Positions 2,171 through 22,729 of a DNA stretch of 24,437 bases are shown here, one piece after another. The notes under the pieces were generated by a model. That model saw only the letters and a program-made list of their open reading frames with translations, did not search any database and was not told the origin of the DNA. Both the position numbers and the translations under genes were made by a program. This DNA is from a virus, in IMG/VR virus record IMGVR_UViG_3300031920_000057, positions 1 to 24,437 of that record. The stretch is one strand, 5' to 3'. Each line of letters opens with the position of its first letter. Within the stretch, counting starts at the first letter, position 1.

Positions 2171-2317
2171 AGGAATAAAAATTTAGTTGTTTTTAGTAAA
2201 AGACAAGGAGTGATGAAAATACAGCTTAAGTATAATCTTGATGAAACTAACTAATAGGCCCCTATGCGCGCGCCCACGGTAATAGGTCCTAGTATAATGG
2301 TAAGGGATAAATATATA

Positions 2318-2336
2318 ATATACCCTAAAGGTATAT
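2318..2336. repeat. Inverted repeat, A/T-rich (7-bp arms)
   Basis: atatacc (2318-2324) and ggtatat (2330-2336) are perfect inverted repeats around ctaaa. The flanks continue as imperfect A/T palindrome. Possible operator or promoter-proximal site. Confidence 0.5.
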
Positions 2337-2383
2337 ATATTTATACCCTTATCCATAGATATATGGGGTAAAAGATCAAAAGC

Positions 2384-2398
2384 TTAACATACTGTTAA
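2384..2398. repeat. Inverted repeat ttaaca-tac-tgttaa
   Basis: Perfect 6-bp arms with a 3-bp centre, the usual geometry of a small dimer-binding operator. It directly abuts the longer palindrome at 2399-2425. Confidence 0.5.
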
Positions 2399-2425
2399 AT
2401 GATAGAGAGACAAGCTCTCTATCAT
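2399..2425. repeat. 11-bp perfect inverted repeat, hairpin or operator
   Basis: atgatagagag (2399-2409) and ctctctatcat (2415-2425) are perfect reverse complements around acaag. The half-site tgatagaga recurs once at about 2444-2452, closer to the rightward gene. There is no T tract after the stem, so a terminator is unlikely. It may be an operator or a hairpin in the 5' leader of the rightward mRNA, 76 bp from the start codon. Confidence 0.6.
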
Positions 2426-2501
2426 ATAGTGCATTTGAAAGCCTTGATAGAGATTAAGTAGAAAATACACTATCACGCGCTTTTTATAAAAATTCAAAAT
2501 T

Positions 2502-2693
2502 ATGAAAAAGGTTAGTAGGACAGAATTACGAAAAATGCTAGGACATGCTAGGTTACAGTTAGCTAAGGAAGAAAAGCAATACAACGCCTTTAGTATAATC
2601 CAAGTACATGACAACGGGGGTAGGACTTTACATGACAAGATTGAACAAGTCAAAGGGAGAATTGATACTCTCACGGAACTTTTGGGAGAATGA
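2502..2693 (+). CDS. Small helical protein of unknown function (63 aa)
   Basis: First gene of the rightward transcript. ATG at 2502 follows an A-rich leader, and the stop overlaps the methyltransferase start as ATGA (2690-2693). The protein is basic at the N terminus (MKKVSRTELRKML). It has two helical segments with heptad-like spacing at residues about 6-28 and 44-61, linked by a Gly/Asn-rich turn, suggesting a coiled-coil hairpin. It might help its neighbour or act as a small DNA-binding or packaging accessory. I cannot assign it, and the minus frame at 2384-2674 is its shadow. Confidence 0.65.
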   Translation: MKKVSRTELRKMLGHARLQLAKEEKQYNAFSIIQVHDNGGRTLHDKIEQVKGRIDTLTELLGE

Positions 2694-5493: not shown

Positions 5494-6957
5494 ATGGATT
5501 ATTTTTTTAAACCGATACCTAAACCAAAGAAAGAGATAAAAGAGGTCGTAAAACTCCCAATAGGGAGAGTATCTACTCCGACCATCAATCAGTCTCTTAT
5601 AGAAATCAAGGGAGCGGTTGATTTTATTAAACCAGGTTTCGAGTACGAATATATCCCAGTAATTCGTAAATTACTAAGGGTAAATAGCAGTCTTAGTTTA
5701 GCAGCAACCAATATAGTTGAATTAGCTAATACTGGTTACACTATAGAGTTTGATAGTGGGGTCCCAGAAGAGAAACAGGCAGAGATGCGGGAACGTATCG
5801 AATTACGATCTCGTAAGTGGGGCCACGGAGTAGCTGGGTTACATGGTTTAATAAATAAGCTGATTTACCAAGTATATATTGGCGGAGCAGTATCAAGTGA
5901 GTGGGTTTTAGAAAATGAATTAGGGGGAGTACAAAACTTAGCCCTAGTTAACCCAGAAACTGTTAGAGTTCATTATAACAGATCAAAACACATATACGAG
6001 TTTTACCAAGTTCCAACATCCTATGTTTCTGGGGTAATACCCGTAAACGCATTAGTCGACCTACAGAACCACGTAAAACTTAATCCAGTAACATATTCTT
6101 ATTATGCACTTATGGGGGATGAAGATTCTCCAGTGGGTATACCCCCGTTCCTTTCAGCATTAGACGATATCCAAGCTCAACTTAAAATGCTTAAGAATAT
6201 TGGGTATGTATCCGACCAATTGGGTTTAATGGGATTTATGGAAGTATTACTCCAAAAGCCGGGCCAGAGAGAGGGAGAAAACATTACTCAATACCAAGCC
6301 CGATTATCTGGGCTTTTAGGGGAAACCAAAGTATCCATTAAGGAAGGTTTAAAAGATGGGATACTTACTGGGTATGAAGGGGACCACGAATTCGAGTTTC
6401 ACTCTACTACTAAAGATACATCGGGTGTAGCCGATATATTCGATATTAACCAACGTATGGTTGCAAATGGTCTCCAATCTTCCAATGCTTTCATGAACGG
6501 CAGTGGGGGAGGGGCAGAGACTATGGTTAATATCGTATTCACTAAGATGCTATCCCAACTACACAATATCCAAACTACCATTGCTAGGGTAATGGAAGAG
6601 GGTATCACTATGGATCTATTGCTAGGGGGTTATAGCTTTAAAAAGGTTACTTTTAAGTTTAAGCCTTCTACTATATCCGATGAGCTTAAAACTCAACAAT
6701 CCAATGAGATCAAGGTTAGAAATAACCGTATTATGTATGCTGATGGTATTATCGGGATGACTCAATACGCTAATGCTATGGGATTCGATAAAGCCGATCA
6801 AAAGGAGCCTAGGGTTGAAATAGATCCTAATAAGACCTCTGATGATGCTGCTGCTAAGAAAAAGAAAGAAGAAGACAAAGATGCCGGGGATAGAAAATCT
6901 CGGGATAAGAAAAAAGCTCAACCAAAAAGAAAAGATACCGATACTCGTAAAAGATAA
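5494..6957 (+). CDS. Portal protein
   Basis: Dodecameric ring at one capsid vertex through which DNA enters and to which the neck binds. Its place between terminase and the protease/scaffold gene, its 487-aa length and its content fit: an alpha/beta clip-stem region (GGVQNLALVNPETVRVHYN, about 144-162), then a long helical stretch including QAQLKMLKNIGYVSDQLGL, and a Gly-rich loop NGSGGGAE typical of portals (about 335-342). The C-terminal 40 residues are a highly charged Lys/Asp/Arg tail without obvious fold. Start ATG is one base after the terminase stop. Confidence 0.88.
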   Translation: MDYFFKPIPKPKKEIKEVVKLPIGRVSTPTINQSLIEIKGAVDFIKPGFEYEYIPVIRKLLRVNSSLSLAATNIVELANTGYTIEFDSGVPEEKQAEMRERIELRSRKWGHGVAGLHGLINKLIYQVYIGGAVSSEWVLENELGGVQNLALVNPETVRVHYNRSKHIYEFYQVPTSYVSGVIPVNALVDLQNHVKLNPVTYSYYALMGDEDSPVGIPPFLSALDDIQAQLKMLKNIGYVSDQLGLMGFMEVLLQKPGQREGENITQYQARLSGLLGETKVSIKEGLKDGILTGYEGDHEFEFHSTTKDTSGVADIFDINQRMVANGLQSSNAFMNGSGGGAETMVNIVFTKMLSQLHNIQTTIARVMEEGITMDLLLGGYSFKKVTFKFKPSTISDELKTQQSNEIKVRNNRIMYADGIIGMTQYANAMGFDKADQKEPRVEIDPNKTSDDAAAKKKKEEDKDAGDRKSRDKKKAQPKRKDTDTRKR

Positions 6958-9638: not shown

Positions 9639-10742
9639 ATGGATATACGTAAATTCGAATCCTTTCGCTTAAAGCATAGCCTTAAGACTGCTGTCTTGAA
9701 GGCCCAAGCCATACGGGTGGATAAGCACCGCCCAACCGATGTATCTTTTGCTGATATTATCAAGCAAGAGACCAATTTTGACATTGGGCAATTGTATGAG
9801 GCTATTGGGGTAGACCCCGCATTTGACACAATTGAGAATATTTTCACCACTCCCGACCAGGACGTTAGGTGGCTTATTCCAGAAATCTTTCGTGATGCCC
9901 TAAGATTAGGATATCGCCAATCACCAATCTGGCCTGCACTAATTGCTCGTGAAGAGCAAACTGCTGGACTACAACAAGTTTTACCATCCGTTAATATGTC
10001 GGATGCCACTCCAAAGAGAGTTGGAGAGGGTGAAACAATCCCAGTGGGGTCTTTGAGTTATCAATCAAAGAAATTTGAAATCCACAAGTTTGGACGGGGT
10101 ATTAAGATTACTGATGAAGTTCTTCGGTATGTAAACCTTAATGTACTATCCATTTATCTTCAAGACTTCGGTATGAAGATGGGCTTGGGAGTAGATACTC
10201 TTGCTATTAATACTCTCCTTAATGGAGAACAAGACGATGGTTCAGAAGCTGCTCCAGTAGTGGGTATTGCAACATCTGGTACCCTGAAGTTCAGGGATAT
10301 CCTTAAAATCTGGATTAGAATGTCCAAAATCGGGCGTACTCCTAAACTATTCGTAGGTGGGGAAGATATGGCTCTGGATACTATGGACCTAACAGAATTC
10401 AGTATGACTTCTAACAATGCTGCTGCCGAGTATAAGTTGAATGTTAAGATGCCTTTACCTCAGGGTTCAGACTATTACATCCACGGAGCAATCCCAACTA
10501 ACCAGCACCTCATCATAGATCCTACTGCAGCTTTGTTAAAGTTGAATGCAGTACCTATGCAAGTTGAATCTGAAAGGATCGTATCCAACCAGACTCAGGC
10601 ATTTTATGCTAGTTTCACTTTGGGTTTTGCTAAGTTATTTACTGATGCCGCTATTATACAGGATCAGTCTAAAGCTATTGCCGATTACCCTCTCCCATCT
10701 GCTTTTGATTATGAGTCAAATCAGATTGTTAATATGACATAA
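9639..10742 (+). CDS. Major capsid protein (HK97 fold)
   Basis: Shell subunit. The basic helical N terminus (residues 1-45) could be the part removed by the protease. The E-loop-like region includes GEGETIPVGSLSYQSKKFEI at about 127-146. The spine-helix region has VLRYVNLNVLSIYLQDFGMK, and the A-domain has RTPKLFVGGEDMAL and DYYIHGAIP. The C-terminal strand QVESERIVSNQTQAFYASF is a common HK97-type capsid ending. At 367 aa it is of normal size. It follows the decoration gene by 61 bp and is followed by a strong terminator, consistent with high separate expression. Confidence 0.92.
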   Translation: MDIRKFESFRLKHSLKTAVLKAQAIRVDKHRPTDVSFADIIKQETNFDIGQLYEAIGVDPAFDTIENIFTTPDQDVRWLIPEIFRDALRLGYRQSPIWPALIAREEQTAGLQQVLPSVNMSDATPKRVGEGETIPVGSLSYQSKKFEIHKFGRGIKITDEVLRYVNLNVLSIYLQDFGMKMGLGVDTLAINTLLNGEQDDGSEAAPVVGIATSGTLKFRDILKIWIRMSKIGRTPKLFVGGEDMALDTMDLTEFSMTSNNAAAEYKLNVKMPLPQGSDYYIHGAIPTNQHLIIDPTAALLKLNAVPMQVESERIVSNQTQAFYASFTLGFAKLFTDAAIIQDQSKAIADYPLPSAFDYESNQIVNMT

Positions 10743-10772: not shown

Positions 10773-10809
10773 AAGAAGGCCGGCCCTATCGGCTGGCCTT
10801 CTTTCTTTT
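10773..10809 (+). terminator. Rho-independent terminator after the major capsid gene
   Basis: aagaaggccggcc (10773-10785) pairs with ggctggccttctt (10791-10803) over 13 positions with one G-U, around a 5-nt loop, followed by tctttt. It ends the head transcript 31 bp past the capsid stop codon. Confidence 0.9.
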
Positions 10810-10844
10810 AAGTAAACAAATAATTAGCAGATAGTTAGCTAGCA

Positions 10845-10903
10845 TACTTAAGTACATTAGGGTTAACCCTATATATCGCCTTAAGTATTCTGGATAGTCT
10901 TTT
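10845..10903 (+). promoter_or_regulatory. Repeated intergenic element, copy A (candidate phage promoter)
   Basis: This 59-bp stretch matches 22234-22292 at 44 of 59 positions without gaps. It shares the intact blocks tacttaagta, atatatcgc and attctggata. It lies just after the capsid terminator and 41 bp before the first neck gene, where a promoter for the tail transcript is needed. Within this copy agggttaaccct is a perfect palindrome (10859-10870) flanked by acttaag and cttaagt (10846-10852, 10880-10886). The palindromic features are not kept in copy B, so sequence rather than structure seems conserved. Confidence 0.65.
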
Positions 10904-10944: not shown

Positions 10945-11310
10945 ATGAGTAAAAAAGTAAAACTAAGTCCGAAGGCAGCCAGTTTTTCAGACCCTGTATC
11001 GGGATTGAGTCTAGTACCAAATGAAGAGAAAGATTTACCGATTGGAAATTTCTGGATGATTAAAGCTGCTATAAAAGGTGGACATTTAATAGTAATTGAA
11101 TCCCCCGTTGAAGAGCCACCTGTTGAGCCACCTGTTGAGCCATCTGTGGGTGAAAAACTTACTGCTGAACTTTTAGCTATGACTCGCGCAGAAATCATGG
11201 AAGAGTATGATTTTATTGACGATGAACATTTAGCCATAGCCAATAAAAAATCTGATAAGCCCAAGCTAGTTGAATATCTCTTATCCATCGTAGGAGAGTA
11301 CCAAGACTAA
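10945..11310 (+). CDS. Head-neck region protein, YqbF-like layout (121 aa)
   Basis: First gene after the capsid terminator. Residues 1-52 form a small beta-rich domain (PKAASFSDPVSGLSLVPNEE, then GGHLIVIE). Residues 53-67 are a Pro-Val-Glu repeat linker (VEEPPVEPPVEPSV). Residues 70-121 are helical and acidic (LTAELLAMTRAEIMEEYDF, then KPKLVEYLLSIVGE), resembling a LEM/HeH or Rho-N-like helix pair. A beta domain, linker and helix pair at this genome position recalls YqbF-type proteins of other phages and prophages. That is a layout comparison, not a demonstrated homology. A connector or accessory role is likely. Confidence 0.65.
   Translation: MSKKVKLSPKAASFSDPVSGLSLVPNEEKDLPIGNFWMIKAAIKGGHLIVIESPVEEPPVEPPVEPSVGEKLTAELLAMTRAEIMEEYDFIDDEHLAIANKKSDKPKLVEYLLSIVGEYQD
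11113..11148 (+). repeat. 12-bp tandem repeat in the linker coding region
   Basis: gagccacctgtt occurs at 11113-11124 and 11125-11136, followed by the imperfect copy gagccatctgtg at 11137-11148. It encodes the EPPV units, so copy-number change would keep the frame and alter linker length. Confidence 0.75.
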
Positions 11311-12303: not shown

Positions 12304-12909
12304 ATGGGGTTAGCGAGTATACGTTCTGGAGTACACGATTTAGCTACTCCTATTAGTAGCCTAAGGATGGAACAAGTCGGTAGTTGGTCTAAGTTAGAGA
12401 CCTTACTTAAATATTTGGGTGGAGGAACAACTAACAGGGGTATTAAGAGAGATATTGCTAAAGCCCAAAGGGATTTCTTAACAGGAATGAAAAGGAGCCT
12501 TATAGCAGGGTTATCTTCTGGGGGTTCTAAAGTTGGAGCAGCATTTGAAAAACATAGTACAGATTATAGGACTTCCGGCTCTGTGGGAGTTAGGTCTGGG
12601 CATTACCTTGCAGCTCTAACCAATGCTCGGATTAAACAAAAGGGATACATAGTTACTCTCCTATTAAGTAAGGGGGATGTTTCTTATAAGCCTAATCCCG
12701 CAGGTTTAACGGTAGGGCAATATGCTCTAATCTTTGAAATGGGTAGAAAAGGAGGACATCGTCAACCTGCAAGACCTCTATGGAAAGCTACCTATGCTCA
12801 TCTGGGGGGTAATGCTGGAGTACTAAGGAATATGATAGGGGGAGTAGGTAAACGATTAAGTAAGATGGGGATAAGTATTAAACAAAAGGGCCATAAGTAT
12901 ATTAAGTAA
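12304..12909 (+). CDS. Neck protein, HK97 gp10-like (201 aa)
   Basis: Two bases after the previous stop. The C-terminal half holds the family signature: YALIFEMGRKGGHRQPARPLW (residues about 139-159), where 'E-x-G' and 'PARPLWKATY' are typical of the gp10-like neck family. The N-terminal 70 residues are helical and basic. A Gly/Ser-rich stretch (AGLSSGGSKVGAAFEKH) precedes a strand TSGSVGVRSGHYLAAL. The protein probably helps join tail to head. It is a little longer than the usual 130-160 aa because of the N-terminal helix. It ends with a Lys-rich tail and overlaps the next gene by one base. Confidence 0.78.
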   Translation: MGLASIRSGVHDLATPISSLRMEQVGSWSKLETLLKYLGGGTTNRGIKRDIAKAQRDFLTGMKRSLIAGLSSGGSKVGAAFEKHSTDYRTSGSVGVRSGHYLAALTNARIKQKGYIVTLLLSKGDVSYKPNPAGLTVGQYALIFEMGRKGGHRQPARPLWKATYAHLGGNAGVLRNMIGGVGKRLSKMGISIKQKGHKYIK

Positions 12910-13604
12910 TGAGTGTTATACAAGAAGTTATAGAGAGATCTTTTTTTGAAGCCATTAGGTTATTATTGGTGGCAGATGGATATACTCCTGACATTGCAAA
13001 TAGCGGTCTATACCCCAATACCCCAACTGGGTACCAAGCATACTTAGTGGCTTTAAAGGGTATAGCTACAGGAGCTAAGGGCTTTTCCATTGAAGTGTTC
13101 GGAGCCTCTAACCCCCTTGATCGAGAAACTAAAGATTTACCAAGGATAACTATTCAGACTTCTGCATTCTTACCTGGCTCTATTGGGTATGATACAGCTC
13201 CCCAAAAGGTACTGAACACTGAAACTAACAAGTATGAATTATTTATTTATGATAGTAGAACCTACGACTTGTTCTTAGATTGTACCGTATCCGCCAAGAC
13301 CCAGGCTCAGCTTAGGGTTATGATGGACATAATACATAGGGCAATACCAAATATGGGATATCTTAAATACTACCATAATACCGAATATTTCTTTGTAGAA
13401 AACTCCTCCTTTCAGGATCAGACTAATGCATCGAATAAAGTTCTCGGTTATAATTACCGATACGAAGTACCAGATATCCAATGGGTAGACCCAATCAAAC
13501 AATTAGATGATCAGGGAGCTACTATAGAAATTCCGCCTATAGTCGAGATAACACTCAATACTTATATTAACGATCGGCTAGGCATAACTAAAATCATAAA
13601 TTAA
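12909..13604 (+). CDS. Tail completion/terminator protein candidate (231 aa)
   Basis: Between the gp10-like neck protein and the sheath, where myophages keep the tail terminator. It starts with a helix (VIQEVIERSFFEAIRLLLV), then a mixed alpha/beta part: LPRITIQTSAFLPGSIG (about 74-90), YELFIYDSRTYDLFLDCTVSA (strands), TQAQLRVMMDIIHRAI (helix), and FFVENSSFQD followed by the strand GYNYRYEVPDIQWV. This strand-helix-strand arrangement is that of gpU/gp15-type terminators. No diagnostic motif was seen, and the extended C terminus is long for that family. Confidence 0.6.
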   Translation: MSVIQEVIERSFFEAIRLLLVADGYTPDIANSGLYPNTPTGYQAYLVALKGIATGAKGFSIEVFGASNPLDRETKDLPRITIQTSAFLPGSIGYDTAPQKVLNTETNKYELFIYDSRTYDLFLDCTVSAKTQAQLRVMMDIIHRAIPNMGYLKYYHNTEYFFVENSSFQDQTNASNKVLGYNYRYEVPDIQWVDPIKQLDDQGATIEIPPIVEITLNTYINDRLGITKIIN

Positions 13605-13619
13605 TAAAATCATATAATC

Positions 13620-15158
13620 ATGGCAAAAGACACAGGTCAGGTAATTGTAAATATTATAAATCAGGCCCAATCCGTAGATGCTCCAACACTTGGGGTTGTA
13701 TATGTTATGGGAGAAACTGAATTTGGCATAATCAATGACCCAAAAGATTTAATTACCAGTTGGACCCGATTCACCAAGTTATATGGTGCGGTCCAAGCAG
13801 GGAACGACTTTCCCCTTAATTGTAAATTGGCTTTACAAGCTGGGGCTACTCTACGAGTAAATAAACTTTTAGGGTCAGGAGCTAGTGTTGCTGCTAGCGG
13901 GACTTTTGTAGATACTGCTGTAGACCTATTCTCTTTTACGTCAAAAGGGTCAGGAACTTATTACAACACAGTATCTACAACAAACGGACTTGGTGTAGAA
14001 GTTAAAGCTGCAACTAGTGGAGTTAGTGGGTATTTTAATCTCTTAATATCTGACTACGCTGCAGGGACTTCAGAATTATACGAAAACCTTATCGTAGATG
14101 AGGCTGGACAAGCTGCTGGAACTTATACCTATTTAAAATCGGTAGTAGATAACTCCCTATTAGTGGACGTAGTCTATGTAGACATTTCTGCCTTAACCGG
14201 AGCTAAGAGACCAGTTAATGAAGTAGAGACCTTTACTGGAGGACTACAGGGAGCTGCAACCTCTATCACGGAATATACAGGTAGCGAACCAGACAAGACT
14301 GGGTTCAGAGCCTTTGATGATTATGACGATGCAATGATAATTGCTTGCCCACACCTCAATGAGACTTCTCTAGCCGGGATATATAGTGCGGGTAAATCTT
14401 ATGCTGCCTTACGGGGGGATATGGTATATCTACAGCATACCGACAACGCTCACACAACCGATACCACAATGCTAGCCGGTATATCCGGATTCGCAGCTTC
14501 TAAGTTTGCAGGTATAATAGGCGGAGGTATCAAGGTTACAGATCCCCTATTAGGCGGAGTTAAAAGTATGCAAGCTCTGGGAGAATTGCTTGGGGTAATT
14601 GCTGCTTCACATGATACTTATGGCCCTTGGCTTGAACCTTCCAATTATATTCGGGGAAATTTCCCTACAGCCCTTGGGGTAGTTAATAACTTTGGATCTC
14701 CTGCTATGTTATCTGACCTCGACACTTTAGCTCAAGGGGGTATTAATATGGTAATCAATCGTAACAACCGTATCATGTTATGGGATCTTTATTCTCTAGC
14801 AGAAGCTACTTCTCCAGAAAAATTCTTATCGATAGTATTCTTGGAGATATATATGATGAAGTCTTTACAGCCTACGTTGGAAAGCTATCTATCAGACCCA
14901 AACACCTTCTCTACTTGGAAGAAGATATACTTTGCAGTTAAACCATTCTTGGATAGCTTAGTTGATGCTGATGCTATATTCGAATATAAATGGGATGGAG
15001 ATCAATACGTTACTGACATGGATAACCTAGTTATCAATGATGCCGATGATGTAGATGCTGGTAAGTATGAAATACAGTTACAAATAAAGACTGTCTCTCC
15101 TATGAAGGTAATTACCTTAAACATCATTTTAACTAAAAGCTCAGTAGAGTTTGTATAA
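13620..15158 (+). CDS. Tail sheath protein
   Basis: Contractile sheath subunit that surrounds the tube. The N terminus ([21 protein letters not shown]) begins the family fold, with an inserted beta domain at about residues 90-200. The C-terminal third is the most diagnostic: [15 protein letters not shown], then a final segment with [11 protein letters not shown] and [20 protein letters not shown], the strand that reaches neighbouring subunits in the mesh. Length (512 aa) is normal for Mu/P2/T4-related sheaths. A tube gene follows 33 bp downstream. The A-rich leader without a Shine-Dalgarno suggests high-level host-style translation. Confidence 0.92.
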
Positions 15159-15191
15159 ATCACTTTGTAATCATTAAAAACATATAATACA

Positions 15192-15662
15192 ATGGCCATA
15201 ACTAATCCTAGGAAAAAATTTAAGTATAGGGTAACTATATTGCCTGCTCCTGCTTTAGAACCTTTTGCAGTCCAGGAGATAACTAGTCCAGATCTTGAGA
15301 TCGAAGAGATCGAACATGGAGCTGGTAACACTTATATAAAAACTGCTGGTATGATCAAGGTTGGGAAAGGAACTATCAGTCGTATCCTATCTGCAGATAA
15401 AGTGTCTGGGGAGATATGGGAATGGGCAAGATTAGCCCAAGATGCCTTAACTCAATCTGGCGGAGATCCTTCTGTATATAAGCGGGTTGTACAGGTTGAC
15501 GAACTTGCTAATGATGGACAGACTGCCTTAGATACTTGGTATTGGATAGGGGCTTGGCCTTCAATGATTAACGGTAGGGAATATAGTGCAACCGATTCAG
15601 CTAATACTGTTGAGTCCTTTGAACTAACCGTTGATGCAGTGTCTCAGAATATCCCGATTTAA
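15192..15662 (+). CDS. Tail tube protein (gp19-like)
   Basis: Forms the inner tube injected through the envelope. It is 156 aa, the family size. KKFKYRVTILPAPALEPF (8-25), DLEIEEIEHGAG (34-45) and GMIKVGKGTISRI (53-65) follow the T4 gp19/phage-tube pattern of strand, 'v-e-h-G' loop and strand. The segment WEWARLAQDAL is the helix, and the C terminus FELTVDAVSQNI is the closing strand. It lies directly after the sheath and before the chaperone, the standard order. Confidence 0.9.
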   Translation: MAITNPRKKFKYRVTILPAPALEPFAVQEITSPDLEIEEIEHGAGNTYIKTAGMIKVGKGTISRILSADKVSGEIWEWARLAQDALTQSGGDPSVYKRVVQVDELANDGQTALDTWYWIGAWPSMINGREYSATDSANTVESFELTVDAVSQNIPI

Positions 15663-15680
15663 TAATAAAACCACAGGAAC

Positions 15681-16418
15681 ATGAAACAAAAAGAAATCAA
15701 CGATACCCAAGGTAGGGTATACGTAATCCGTGAACAGACGGGTCAGGATGATGACATATTATCCAACATCTCTTCGGATGAAGCTACTTCTCTAAATACA
15801 TATTTAGCAGGGATCATACAAAAAGGGCCAGATGGTAATCGTTTAACCCTAGCAGATGTAGAGAAATTACGATTAAGAGATAAATACGTAATCCTTTTCA
15901 AATCCCGTATTTTTTCTCTTAGCGAAAATCTAATATTTTCTTATGCTTGGCCGGGTAATTCAGAATCTACCGAATACTCCGTAGACTTAAGGGATTATGT
16001 TTGGGACTACACTAAGCCTTTACCCGAGAAAGGGGAACCTGGGTATTCTGAAGATAGGATTAAACCTTACGAGTTTACGGGAGTTATCGAAAAGGAATTA
16101 TCTTCTGAGACTAAGGTAGCTTTTGATATATTAGATGGTATTGGAGAGATCTTCTTACTAAAACTTAAGGAGAACGAACGGACTATTAATAAGCAATTAG
16201 TAGCCCGAGCTTTAAGGGTATGGGATACTAATAAGTGGATAACTGTTAAAAACTTTGGAGTATTTAGTTCTAAGGATATGATGGAAATCCGAAATTGGGT
16301 TGATGAAATAGATCCCCCAGTAGATGGCAATACTGATCTACAGAACCCAAGTACTGGTGAGGTTATTAGAATGCCGGTTATTGGAGTAAAGGATTTTTAT
16401 TACCCCGCGAAGATTTAG
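15681..16418 (+). CDS. Tail assembly chaperone, short (zero-frame) form
   Basis: 245-aa protein between tube and tape measure, where tail chaperones lie; these coat the tape measure during tail polymerisation and are not in the virion. It starts with a beta-rich section (GRVYVIREQTGQDDDIL), continues with an acidic middle (YSVDLRDYVWDYTKPLP) and a helical C-terminal half (LLKLKENERTINKQLVARAL), and ends PVIGVKDFYYPAKI. Chaperones at this position often come in two forms by -1 frameshifting, and an open -1 frame runs past the stop at 16416-16418 (see next entry). The chaperone role is from context and pattern. Confidence 0.72.
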   Translation: MKQKEINDTQGRVYVIREQTGQDDDILSNISSDEATSLNTYLAGIIQKGPDGNRLTLADVEKLRLRDKYVILFKSRIFSLSENLIFSYAWPGNSESTEYSVDLRDYVWDYTKPLPEKGEPGYSEDRIKPYEFTGVIEKELSSETKVAFDILDGIGEIFLLKLKENERTINKQLVARALRVWDTNKWITVKNFGVFSSKDMMEIRNWVDEIDPPVDGNTDLQNPSTGEVIRMPVIGVKDFYYPAKI

Positions 16419-16567
16419 AATGGCAGTATTGGTTCCTTTGCCAGTTTAACTTACACTTAACTTGGGAGGAATTCTTAAATTTACCGCTATCTTCTCGGGC
16501 CAAGTTCATGGGCTGGGCTAACGACCAAAATGATAAGAATAAGACCTTAATAAGTCAAACATCATAA
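16370..16567 (+). CDS. -1 frame extension of the tail assembly chaperone
   Basis: The -1 frame is open from 16370 to TAA 16565-16567 and lacks a plausible start near its beginning. It reads LEWQYWFLCQF, LTWEEFLNLPLSSRAKF, MGWANDQ. This resembles the short helical domains, with W-x-x-C and EE-x-L-x-L-P patterns, that extend tail chaperones or occur as small proteins before tape measures. The only slippery-looking run in the open overlap is T five times at 16394-16398, with zero-frame codons GAT TTT TAT. Slippage of the Phe tRNA there would join residue F239 to 56 further residues, giving about 295 aa. A separate gene with a rare start remains possible. Confidence 0.68.
   Translation, partial: NAGYWSKGFLLPREDLEWQYWFLCQFNLHLTWEEFLNLPLSSRAKFMGWANDQNDKNKTLISQTS
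16394..16400 (+). promoter_or_regulatory. Candidate -1 ribosomal slippery site (T TTT TAT)
   Basis: In the zero frame the codons are TTT then TAT, preceded by T. The P-site Phe tRNA can re-pair perfectly on TTT after a -1 slip, but the A-site codon would change from TAT to TTA. The heptamer is therefore imperfect, and slippage with an empty A site would have to be assumed. It lies 18 bases before the zero-frame stop. Confidence 0.45.
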
Positions 16568-16573
16568 TTTCTA

Positions 16574-16597
16574 CTGGGACCTTTAATCGGGTCCCAG
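16574..16597 (+). repeat. 8-bp perfect hairpin between chaperone extension and tape measure
   Basis: ctgggacc (16574-16581) and ggtcccag (16590-16597) pair around tttaatcg. The following bases (agttgtatt) are only weakly T-rich. It begins 6 bp after the stop of the -1 extension. It could attenuate transcription into the tape measure gene or stabilise an upstream mRNA end. It is too far from the slippery site to be its stimulator by a simple stem. Confidence 0.5.
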
Positions 16598-16637
16598 AGT
16601 TGTATTGGGATAAATCTAACTTGTACTTTTAAATGAT

Positions 16638-18653
16638 ATGTTACTAGGTAGCTCCGCTTCAGGCGGCCAGATTTCTTTAGGCGTAAGATTTTATCTTAAC
16701 GACCAGTTCTCTACTCCAGTACGGAATATGCGGACTGCTTTACAAGGATACCGAGGAGAGTTCCAAGCTTTCCAGGAGAACCTTAGAGCAGCCCGTAATG
16801 TCGCATTAGGGGTAGCAGCAGCAGGAGCTATGGCTACTAAGGGTTTATACTCAGCAGCTATGGAGGGAGCTGAATTCCTCTATATCATGAAAGGGGTAGA
16901 GGCGATTACTGAAGGTACAAACCAGCAAATGGCCGACCTTAATACCTTAGCTATTAAGCTGGGTAGAGAAACTATGTTTATGCCTGAGGACATTGCTTCA
17001 GGTATGAGATTCATGGCGATGGCTGGCCAGGATGCCTTAGTTATTAAGAAGACTATGGCAGCTTTCACGGATCTTGCTGGAGCAACCATGACAACCCTAG
17101 GTGGGAAGATGGGAGCTGCTGATATTGGAACTAATGCTTTAAAAGCATTTGGTTGGGAAGCAGAACGATCTACAGAGATGGCCGATATCCTAGTGGCTGC
17201 AACAACCAATGCGAACGTATCCTTAGTTGACCTTGGTAATTCTATCAGATATGTAGCCGCAACTTCAAGGAACTTACAGGTCCCAGTACAAGAAACTATT
17301 GGGTTATTAATGTCCCTAGGTAATGCTGGTATCCAAAGCTCTATGGCAGGTACTGCATTAGAGAATATGTACAGGTACCTAGCCCGATCTGTAACTTCTA
17401 ATGCCTCTAAGAAAGCCCGAGAAGCTTGGGAAAGTATGGGACTAGGCCGAGCCGATATTACTACTGATACGGGTAGGTTTAAACCCATGGTTGAGATCCT
17501 TGGTATGATGAATGAAGCTATGGCTGGGATGGACCCCATAGAAATACAGGCTATATTTAGAAATATCTTTGGAGTAAGGGGAGTAAGGGGAGCTGCTACT
17601 ATTGCAAGGAACCTTAAGCAAGCTGGGCAGTTTGTGGGTATGCTCTCAGACGAGAATCAGATTGGGGGTACTGCAGCAGCTAAAATGAAGATTATGATGG
17701 ACAACTTACAGGGAGCCTCCTTTCAGTTGATCTCCACATGGAAAGGTCTTAAGGTTGCTTTCGCAGAATCAGCTGGGAAATGGTTAATACCTCTAATGCA
17801 TGGTTTAAAAACTATATTAGGGTATATTACAGACCTTATAAAAACTCCCATAGGGGGGTTCTTAGCCCGAGCCACCTTTGGGTTCATTACTCTAACAACT
17901 ATAGTATTTGGATTGAAAGCTGCCATCTTATCAGTAGCTTATGCTATGAAGACTATGACTGTATCCGTTGGGGGAATGGCTGCTGCTTCTAAGGTTGCTA
18001 TGGGCTTTATGGGAATGGGGGGATATAATCTCGCTGCTATGTCTGGTGCAGGAGCTAGAGTTGGGGCTACTTCTGGGGCTGTCCAGGGACCCATACCTTT
18101 GACCCGGAACTTGAAGTCTGGAGTTAGTGTTGTATCTGCAGGTAGGTACGGGAATCGTTACAGACAAGGTAGCCGATTCATCCCCAAAACTGCAGCCTTT
18201 AAAGCTGCGGCACCTTTAACTAAAGTAATGAAGACTCTCACTCCTGCTGTCAGAAGTTTAGGGGGAGTTTTACGGGGTGTATTGAGTTTTCTAGGTCCGA
18301 TTGGTATTGGGATAGCAGCATTATCCATCTTTGGCCCCATGATATACTCAGCTCTAACCCGTAACTCTGATGCCGTAGAGGCAAACTCCCGAGCTCTAAT
18401 GCAGAGCCATGATGCTCCCATGGATCCTGAATTATATGCCATGATTTCCAGTAAAAACATTGGGGAATTAATGGAAACCATTTTGGAGAAGATGACTGCC
18501 GCGATTGAACGAGACAGTACTATGCAAGAAATAATCTTAGCTAAGTTAGAGAATGACTCTAATTTTGCAGGGATTGCTGAATTTTTAATATCTGCCCAAG
18601 GTTCAGGTATGGGTATTACTCCAGGGTCAAACTTAATTACACCTTCTGAATAA
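16638..18653 (+). CDS. Tail tape measure protein (671 aa)
   Basis: Sets tail length and is expelled ahead of DNA at infection. Residues about 85-370 match the TP901-type tape measure core: LNTLAIKLGRETMFMPEDIA (101-120), MAGQDALVIKKTM, LGNSIRYVAATS (199-210), GLLMSLGNAGIQSSMAGTAL (222-241). A hydrophobic pair lies at about 407-435 and 550-578 (VLSFLGPIGIGIAALSIFGP), probably membrane-seeking. Between them is a Gly/Ala and basic linker. No peptidase or lysozyme motif was seen. At 671 aa, with about 0.15 nm per residue, a tail near 100 nm is implied. The start is ATG 16638; an earlier ATG at 16633 is out of frame. Confidence 0.9.
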   Translation: MLLGSSASGGQISLGVRFYLNDQFSTPVRNMRTALQGYRGEFQAFQENLRAARNVALGVAAAGAMATKGLYSAAMEGAEFLYIMKGVEAITEGTNQQMADLNTLAIKLGRETMFMPEDIASGMRFMAMAGQDALVIKKTMAAFTDLAGATMTTLGGKMGAADIGTNALKAFGWEAERSTEMADILVAATTNANVSLVDLGNSIRYVAATSRNLQVPVQETIGLLMSLGNAGIQSSMAGTALENMYRYLARSVTSNASKKAREAWESMGLGRADITTDTGRFKPMVEILGMMNEAMAGMDPIEIQAIFRNIFGVRGVRGAATIARNLKQAGQFVGMLSDENQIGGTAAAKMKIMMDNLQGASFQLISTWKGLKVAFAESAGKWLIPLMHGLKTILGYITDLIKTPIGGFLARATFGFITLTTIVFGLKAAILSVAYAMKTMTVSVGGMAAASKVAMGFMGMGGYNLAAMSGAGARVGATSGAVQGPIPLTRNLKSGVSVVSAGRYGNRYRQGSRFIPKTAAFKAAAPLTKVMKTLTPAVRSLGGVLRGVLSFLGPIGIGIAALSIFGPMIYSALTRNSDAVEANSRALMQSHDAPMDPELYAMISSKNIGELMETILEKMTAAIERDSTMQEIILAKLENDSNFAGIAEFLISAQGSGMGITPGSNLITPSE

Positions 18654-21502: not shown

Positions 21503-22200
21503 TGGATTCTGACTATATACATAGGAATGGTATTGAAAAGTTTGGTAGGTTTTATGGGACCTACTCCGGAATGGTACAAGATGTTGAAGACCCCTTAGGC
21601 CTTAATCGTTTACTTTTGTATATACCCGAGGTCATGGGCCCTACGGGGGATTTGACTTGGGCTTTAGCTAAGGGCTCTTTTTCTGGGGCAAACTACGGGG
21701 CTCAAGCTATACCCTCTATTGGAGATATGGTTTGGGTAACTTATAGGCATGGCCATCCCCGACACGCCTTATGGGAACATGGAGCTTTTGGGGTAGACGA
21801 AAAACCGGAGGACTTTAAAGAACTAGATACCTTCGGCTTTATAACTCCAAGGGGAACTAAGGTTCTTTTAAAAGATTCAGATAATACAATATTGGTTAGT
21901 ACTCCAGAGGGAAACTCCATATCCATTATAGAAGATGGAGCTAAGATAGTTTTTAAGAATAAAGAGAATATCTCTATATCCATTGAGGGTAAGAAAGTAA
22001 AAGTAAATAATCAGTATCTTACTATAGGGGATGAGTTAAAAGATATACTAGAGGAACTCCAAGAACACTTATCTGCATACAGTACAGCTATACTTGGAGC
22101 TACAGGGGTACCGGTAATAGGGACTTCTAGTCCCACCCCCGACATTGGGTTAGTTGAATGGCGAGATAAGCTCAAAGAATTCTTAACTAACTATACTTAA
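21502..22200 (+). CDS. Baseplate spike, OB-fold/gpV-gp5-like (232 aa)
   Basis: Membrane-piercing spike at the tail tip. Residues 15-98 form an OB-fold: GRFYGTYSGMVQDVEDPLG, NRLLLYIPEVMGP, then IPSIGDMVWVTYRHGHPRHALW. Residues about 112-170 (FITPRGTKVLLKD, ILVSTPEGNSISIIEDGAKI, ISISIEGKKVKV) show short regular strands suited to the triple beta-helix. The end (173-232) is a helix (DELKDILEELQEHLSAY) and a variable tip. No lysozyme domain is present, as in Mu gp45 rather than T4 gp5. Start overlaps the hub stop (TAATG). This is the last gene of the hub unit before a 157-bp gap. Confidence 0.85.
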   Translation: MDSDYIHRNGIEKFGRFYGTYSGMVQDVEDPLGLNRLLLYIPEVMGPTGDLTWALAKGSFSGANYGAQAIPSIGDMVWVTYRHGHPRHALWEHGAFGVDEKPEDFKELDTFGFITPRGTKVLLKDSDNTILVSTPEGNSISIIEDGAKIVFKNKENISISIEGKKVKVNNQYLTIGDELKDILEELQEHLSAYSTAILGATGVPVIGTSSPTPDIGLVEWRDKLKEFLTNYT

Positions 22201-22233
22201 GCATATATTTTGTACATGTATATTAGGGTATAG

Positions 22234-22292
22234 TACTTAAGTATCCTACGGTTGGCCCCATATATCGCTACTAGCATTCTGGATACTATATT
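22234..22292 (+). promoter_or_regulatory. Repeated intergenic element, copy B (candidate phage promoter)
   Basis: Second copy of the 59-bp element at 10845-10903, 34 bp after the spike stop and 65 bp before the gp25-like start. All three conserved blocks (tacttaagta, atatatcgc, attctggata) are intact. Directly after the last block is tatatttg (22287-22294), a match to the Bacteroidota -10 form TAnnTTTG. Copy A lacks the final TTTG at that place, which leaves promoter identity open. A positively regulated phage promoter is the leading idea. Confidence 0.6.
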
Positions 22293-22357
22293 TGCATATA
22301 TAAATTAACTATATAGGCTAAGCCCTCCAATTAACGAGTAAGAATCTTATAATTAAA

Positions 22358-22729
22358 ATGGCAACTGAAACAAATCAACATGGTTTATACTTTCCTATCG
22401 TATTAAGCGCTGGAGCTCCCGTGAAACCTAGCTTAGAAGACTCAATAGACTCTTCCCTCAGAATCATTCTTTCTTGGCCTTACCTTAATCGTTACTTTTT
22501 AAATAAGTTTGGTTCTGTATTACATAGGTTAGTTAGTGAACCCAATACCCAGTATCTACTTATCCAAGTAAAACAATATGTAATATATTCCATAGAACTT
22601 TGGGAAACTAGGATTGAGATACAACAAGTCGAGACTTTACTAAATGATACAGGGGATAGTTTAGAAATTAACATAGCAGCTATGATTAAAGATACACAAG
22701 AAATTTATAACTATACGACACAAATATGA
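22358..22729 (+). CDS. Baseplate wedge protein, gp25/GPW-like (123 aa)
   Basis: Attaches the sheath to the baseplate. GLYFPIVLSAG (8-18), SLEDSIDSSLRIIL (24-38) and KFGSVLHRLVSEPNTQ (50-65) follow the gp25 pattern of an extended start, helix, and 'fGS-L-x-x-l-x-E-p' motif. The C-terminal half has a helix (YLLIQVKQYVIYSIELWE) and ends in a strand SLEINIAAMIK. Length is normal for the family. ATG follows an A/T-rich leader, and the gene overlaps the next start as ATGA. It opens the wedge unit, with the gpJ-like gene after it. Confidence 0.85.
   Translation: MATETNQHGLYFPIVLSAGAPVKPSLEDSIDSSLRIILSWPYLNRYFLNKFGSVLHRLVSEPNTQYLLIQVKQYVIYSIELWETRIEIQQVETLLNDTGDSLEINIAAMIKDTQEIYNYTTQI

Follow-up and report, generated by a model that had tools for sequence, protein, structure and literature searches.

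The window analysed here, a 24.4-kb virus record whose gene content makes it a myovirus fragment, carries two copies of an intergenic element of about 95 bp that, judged by its sequence and placement, is probably a phage-specific class of promoter, activator-like in its upstream part and serving several rightward operons. Six related contigs of one clade contain at least 17 copies between them. The window encodes a methylase (at 2690), terminase (4035), portal (5494), major capsid protein (9639-10742, plus strand; phrog_3922, E 4.5e-41), sheath (13620), tube (15192), tape measure (16638), a gp25-like baseplate wedge protein (22358-22729, plus strand; phrog_43, E 9e-14) and a second wedge protein (22726). 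Copy A lies between the capsid-gene terminator and the neck/tail operon, headed by a gene for a 121-residue protein with no PHROG match (10945-11310, plus strand), and copy B precedes the gp25-like wedge gene.

The repeat was first noticed from the letters alone as a gapless match of 44 in 59 positions between 10845-10903 and 22234-22292, and this count is exact. It is the highest of all gapless 59-mer pairs at every offset on the plus strand of the window, the runner-up (8978/9269) reaching 41 and the maximum in the mononucleotide-shuffled window 36. The combination TACTTAAGTA...ATATATCGC at 10-20 bp spacing occurs twice against an expectation of 0.00 (100 shuffles, no chance match), and exact ATTCTGGATA is confined within the window to the two sites. 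The distances to ATG, 41 bp for copy A and 65 bp for copy B, were also correctly given, as was the placement of both copies in the two genuine long gaps that follow the capsid gene; most of 16419-16637, which looks like a third, is taken up by a frameshifted reading frame that is conserved. The extent needed revision, as the 59-bp match is sound but the element starts some 36 bp before it, its true left edge being TTAAG at 10808-10812 and 22197-22201, exactly 40 bp before CTTAAG. Likewise, palindromes described as exclusive to copy A are so for GGGTTAACCC but not for TACTTAAGTA, which both copies hold, and TATATTTG of copy B spans 22287-22294, ending 2 bp beyond the limit first assigned to the copy.

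In its full extent copy A occupies 10808-10903 on the plus strand (HMM 65 bits), and its 88-column PSSM score of 82 is the highest of the set. From left to right it comprises the upstream block TAAGTAA (10809-10815; consensus TAAGTAT) 40 bp before CTTAAG, CTTAAGT within the palindrome TACTTAAGTA (10847-10853; C, TT, A and G columns invariant in 13 copies), the perfect dyad TAGGG-TTAA-CCCTA (10858-10871), the ATCGC block (10875-10879; A and final C invariant) and CTGG (10890-10893; GG the same in every copy, CT in over 90%), the putative core block near -10. Immediately upstream an intrinsic terminator follows the capsid gene (10773-10809, plus strand, read directly), with a hairpin AAGAAGGCC/GGCCTTCTT and a T run that touches the first block of copy A; a terminator-like hairpin is found at this place in relatives too. 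Copy B (22196-22292, plus strand; HMM 22196-22290, 60 bits; PSSM 76.7) overlaps the stop codon of the 21502-22200 gene and has the same series on the same strand, namely TAAGCAT (22198-22204), CTTAAGT (22236-22242), TACGG-TTGG-CCCCA (22247-22260) as the counterpart of the copy A dyad, ATCGC (22264-22268) and CTGG (22279-22282).

Further copies, to which the sequence-only reading had tied its fate, do exist in relatives. Phages with capsid proteins 70-77% identical have the element in the corresponding position, behind the capsid-gene terminator, and copies before the gp25 gene are likewise found in relatives. A first PSSM trained on eight copies recovered others outside its training set (G005 32910, 48 bits; G004 6980, 25 bits), and one with a one-base insertion (G004 12974, 9.7 bits) was recognised by eye. 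An exact ATATATCGC-N6-10-ATTCTGGATA scan of IMG/VR gave no match; because the blocks vary too much for such a scan the invariant columns were searched instead, leading to G009, a 48-kb contig that covers the replication half of a related phage and carries four copies, of which three are strong and one is weak. The IMG/VR pattern matches L067 and L068 were rejected as chance, and three matches from an invariant-pattern scan of genome contigs, all in Bacillota with PSSM scores of at most 5, are read in the same way. With a widened PSSM the copies score 58-82 and everything else at most 18, save the weak G009 copy at 31. Model-free self-comparison of intergenic DNA in G007 (capsid protein 66% identical) revealed three copies of a diverged form, in which the first interval is 39 rather than 40 bp and an extra base ahead of TAGGG makes up for the loss, leaving the distance from first block to TAGGG unchanged. 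The HMM was built from all 17 copies including this trio, whose HMM scores are therefore not independent. More distant relatives have the terminator but no detectable copy.

The order of blocks is TTAAGTAT, CTTAAGT 40 bp on, TAGGG-N4-CCC, a mostly-ATCGC block, CTGG and T-rich DNA. In the consensus of the 13 gapless main-clade copies (columns -35 to 59), TAAGTATAT starts at -35 and is followed by CTTAAGT (3-9), TAGGG (14-18), CCC (23-25), TATCGC (30-35, final C invariant), AAG (39-41), CTGG (46-49), which is among the most conserved blocks, and T-rich DNA from 57. TAAG of the upstream block is invariant in all 13, and both intervals, upstream block to CTTAAG and CTTAAG to ATTCTGG, are 40 bp without a single indel in these copies. 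The TAGGG/CCCTA dyad is perfect in copy A and imperfect in most copies. The view that divergence between copies reflects selection on the blocks themselves is borne out over this gapless set. Copies within a genome are no closer to each other than to those of other genomes (window A/B 56/88, window A/G003 A 54/88), with the exception of a group formed by G003 B and G009 E1/E2 (69-75/88); the general pattern fits long independent survival of the blocks, not recent duplication.

The capsid-gene and gp25-wedge sites are not the sole contexts, as copies also accompany replication operons (DnaB, primase), a gene for a 319-residue HTH-like protein and the edges of the early region. Read along transcription, G009 has copies at 5536 before DnaB, 26335 before the 319-residue protein gene, 35903 at the start of the early region and, weakly, 43156. 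Those of G004 lie at 6944, 12938, 27051 (A) and 38996 (B), those of G005 at 5807, 20363 (A) and 32874 (B), and in G007 one stands ahead of gp25, one ahead of a lipoprotein-like gene and one between DnaB and primase-like genes. Positions thus vary by phage, G007 lacking a copy after the capsid gene and the DnaB copy standing before the gene in G009 and after it in G007, and good copies are followed by a co-directional gene. A possible minus-strand copy near 1447 in G007, below the HMM threshold, has a CTTAAG pair 39 bp apart and precedes a minus-strand gene. No copy was found before the methylase/terminase operon. The initial designation of a 'late' promoter is too narrow, given the copies at the start of replication operons and at the borders of the early region. 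Less in line with a promoter, three copies (G004 12938, G005 5807, G009 rc 43156) are followed not directly by a gene but by long non-coding DNA. These stretches (G004 12938-13488, G009 rc 43156-43710, G005 5807-6612) contain repeated GAGCTA motifs, in G005 as a tandem repeat of about 65 bp, followed by a host-type promoter and, before the first gene, a boxA-like GTTCTTTGAAAT that is less exact in G005.

The recurrence before several operons and the orientation with transcription support the earlier proposal of a promoter specific to these phages, with an activator-like section upstream. We favour this reading because it explains where the copies lie and which way they point, the contact with the terminator, the rigid spacing and the absence of conserved RNA structure; at site A in particular the element fills the space right after the terminator, which leaves the next operon in need of a start of its own. 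In such a mechanism rightward operons, both replication and structural, would start from the element once phage factors are present. CTGG and the T-rich DNA after it would form the core, recognised by RNA polymerase with the help of a phage specificity factor, and the upstream blocks TTAAGTAT, CTTAAGT, TAGGG-N4-CCC and ATCGC would bind one or more activators or provide extended polymerase contacts. Early genes would be served by ordinary Bacteroidota-type promoters. The placing of the core comes from the G009 copy before the 319-residue protein gene, in which only 24 bp separate CTGG from ATG and the protein start is conserved in a homologue from the gut phage MT121964, so that CTGG cannot be a -33/-35 box at this copy. 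If transcription begins at a common offset, the start would fall within those 24 bp, which would put CTGG near -10 and TAGGG-N4-CCC around -40, a region where activators often bind. The start 10-20 bp past the last block, as originally predicted, would fit this 24-bp ceiling.

The promoters expected of the host are of a different kind. The Bacteroidota primary promoter has TTTG at -33 and TAnnTTTG at -7 (PMC6847099), the latter box lying 4-5 nt before the start. No TTG-N18-23-TAnnTTTG is present in intergenic plus-strand DNA of the window, and in G004, G005 and G009 such intergenic promoters sit in the early region. Their occurrence in relatives, together with the absence by eye of Shine-Dalgarno sequences before genes, indicates that the host of this phage group is probably a member of the Bacteroidota. 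Early promoters of G004 and G009 form a repeated intergenic unit of their own, TTTAAATCC...TTATTATATTTGCAT, nearly identical at several sites (G004 2957, 7044, 8706 and 9471; several in G009). The element itself has no consistently placed TAnnTTTG, and CTGG with its flank fits neither the -10 box of sigma-70 promoters nor the -7 box of the Bacteroidota, a point against the promoter reading. A TAnnTTTG box does follow some copies, as TATATTTG or TACATTTG after copy B in both the window and G003 and after copy C in G004 and G009, which would be expected if the element were a cluster of operator or activator sites recruiting an activator to a host-type promoter, with the downstream box as core read by a host sigma factor. 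We consider this unlikely, as the distance to the box varies from about 6 to more than 60 bp, most copies (A of all phages, those of G005 and that of the 319-residue protein gene) lack a box close before ATG, and CTGG itself ranks with the most conserved blocks.

The element most likely acts as DNA, since RNAalifold gives a consensus energy of 0 for the copy set and the TAGGG/CCCTA helix pairs no better than shuffles do, with standard pairs in 66% of cells in either case and one doubly changed cell. With no covariation at that helix, TAGGG-N4-CCC is read as a DNA contact region. The mRNA element that the sequence-only reading had offered as an alternative accordingly found no support. Its fuller form, a riboswitch-like leader or an antitermination or processing signal working post-transcriptionally, would suit the 5' leader position and the hairpin possible in copy A and some others, but is very improbable given these energies and pairings, the lack of an Rfam match and, at site A, an abutting terminator that leaves no room for a promoter before it. 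A dispersed DNA site for replication, recombination, partition or packaging, to which several palindromic blocks, rigid spacing and three or four copies per long contig might point, is equally hard to sustain, as the copies lie in gaps before co-directional genes and their positions differ between phages, tracking operon starts. That the element is instead read by the phage's own RNA polymerase, for which its dissimilarity to host promoters could be cited, we regard as barely credible, as inspection by eye of the proteins encoded on the 48-kb G009 contig turned up no gene for such an enzyme (the genomes being incomplete) and promoters of single-subunit polymerases are usually short.

Phage-specific promoters read through phage factors are an already known kind. 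T4 late promoters consist of an 8-bp TATA box with no conserved -35 element and depend on gp55, a sigma-family late factor (PMC2988020); the box lies about one helical turn upstream of the start. A promoter class of the kind proposed here would resemble them in being phage-specific, in using host polymerase with a small sigma-like phage protein (here a candidate) and in having its core at the -10 place (here by deduction). It differs in its length of about 95 bp with several rigid blocks, conserved as far as about 80 bp upstream of CTGG, in having no TATA box common to all copies, and in standing before DnaB/primase operons and around the early region rather than at late genes only. Length, rigidity and use for both replication and structural genes thus set it apart from T4 late promoters. 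In the T4 MotA middle, P2 Ogr and Mu Mor/C promoters a core is combined with an upstream activator site at fixed distance. The element would be analogous in its core and upstream activator-like site, but its blocks reach further upstream, and they presumably match none of the MotA, Ogr or Mor/C sites. We found no description of it in the open-access literature searched, in which the switch from early to later genes in Bacteroidota phages is itself little described. The element serves as a marker of operon starts in these uncultured phages, and offers a concrete candidate promoter class, located by coordinate in six contigs, along with a protein that may be its specificity factor.

The leading candidate for a reader is a protein of about 190 residues encoded directly before DnaB in G009 and G007 (syntenic homologues, 46% identical), a region outside the window and the G003, G004 and G005 contigs. 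Sequence searches of this family in Pfam, PHROGs and PDB gave nothing informative and no sigma match. Its AlphaFold model (pLDDT 77.5, pTM 0.44) consists entirely of helices, apparently arranged in two domains. In a PDB fold search the first 35 of 49 matches are sigma factors, the best at E 0.15 and none significant alone, and in a viral fold library one uncharacterised relative (3e-6) is followed by several sigma-annotated phage proteins (E of at least 0.07). These models suggest that the protein is probably a divergent sigma factor. Distant homologues occur in gut phages, often behind a strong host-type promoter box. MT121964 has homologues of both this and the 319-residue protein yet no detectable copy of the element, and for this reason we grade the sigma-like protein only a possible reader. 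We advance just tentatively, and with some doubt, the broader picture that an unusually long, rigid promoter class (about 95 bp, blocks 40 bp apart) is paired in Bacteroidota myophages with an unrecognised, extremely divergent two-domain phage sigma factor, possibly together with the 319-residue HTH-like protein, whose structure model (pLDDT 38) was too poor to use. If so, the copy before the gene of the latter could create a positive feedback loop.

Other features were evident in the same genomes. The divergent gap before the methylase/terminase operon contains a row of hairpins (window 2270-2530, G004 18320-18555, G005 12655-12875, L004 656-880) whose stems differ in sequence with pairing kept across the four phages (for example TTAACA/TGTTAA, TTAGCC/GGCTAA, CTAACC/GGTTAG); the first hairpin has the loop CCTAAAGG, TTAAGTrG follows the row, and there is no Rfam match. 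It may be a structured leader RNA or a DNA site such as an origin or packaging site. A probable programmed -1 frameshift at about 16380-16567 of the window joins the 15681-16418 gene to a downstream frame (...FLLPREDLEWQYWF...); G004 and G005 share it, at a slippery stretch of the GGATTTTTnnTT type, and the arrangement is typical of the tail assembly chaperone. In G009 (rc 14656-18042) a DNA polymerase-like gene, whose product has 1128 residues, carries, by eye, an apparent intein-like insertion running from CLIAGSMVKTPYGLIPI... to ...VANGFTVHNS.
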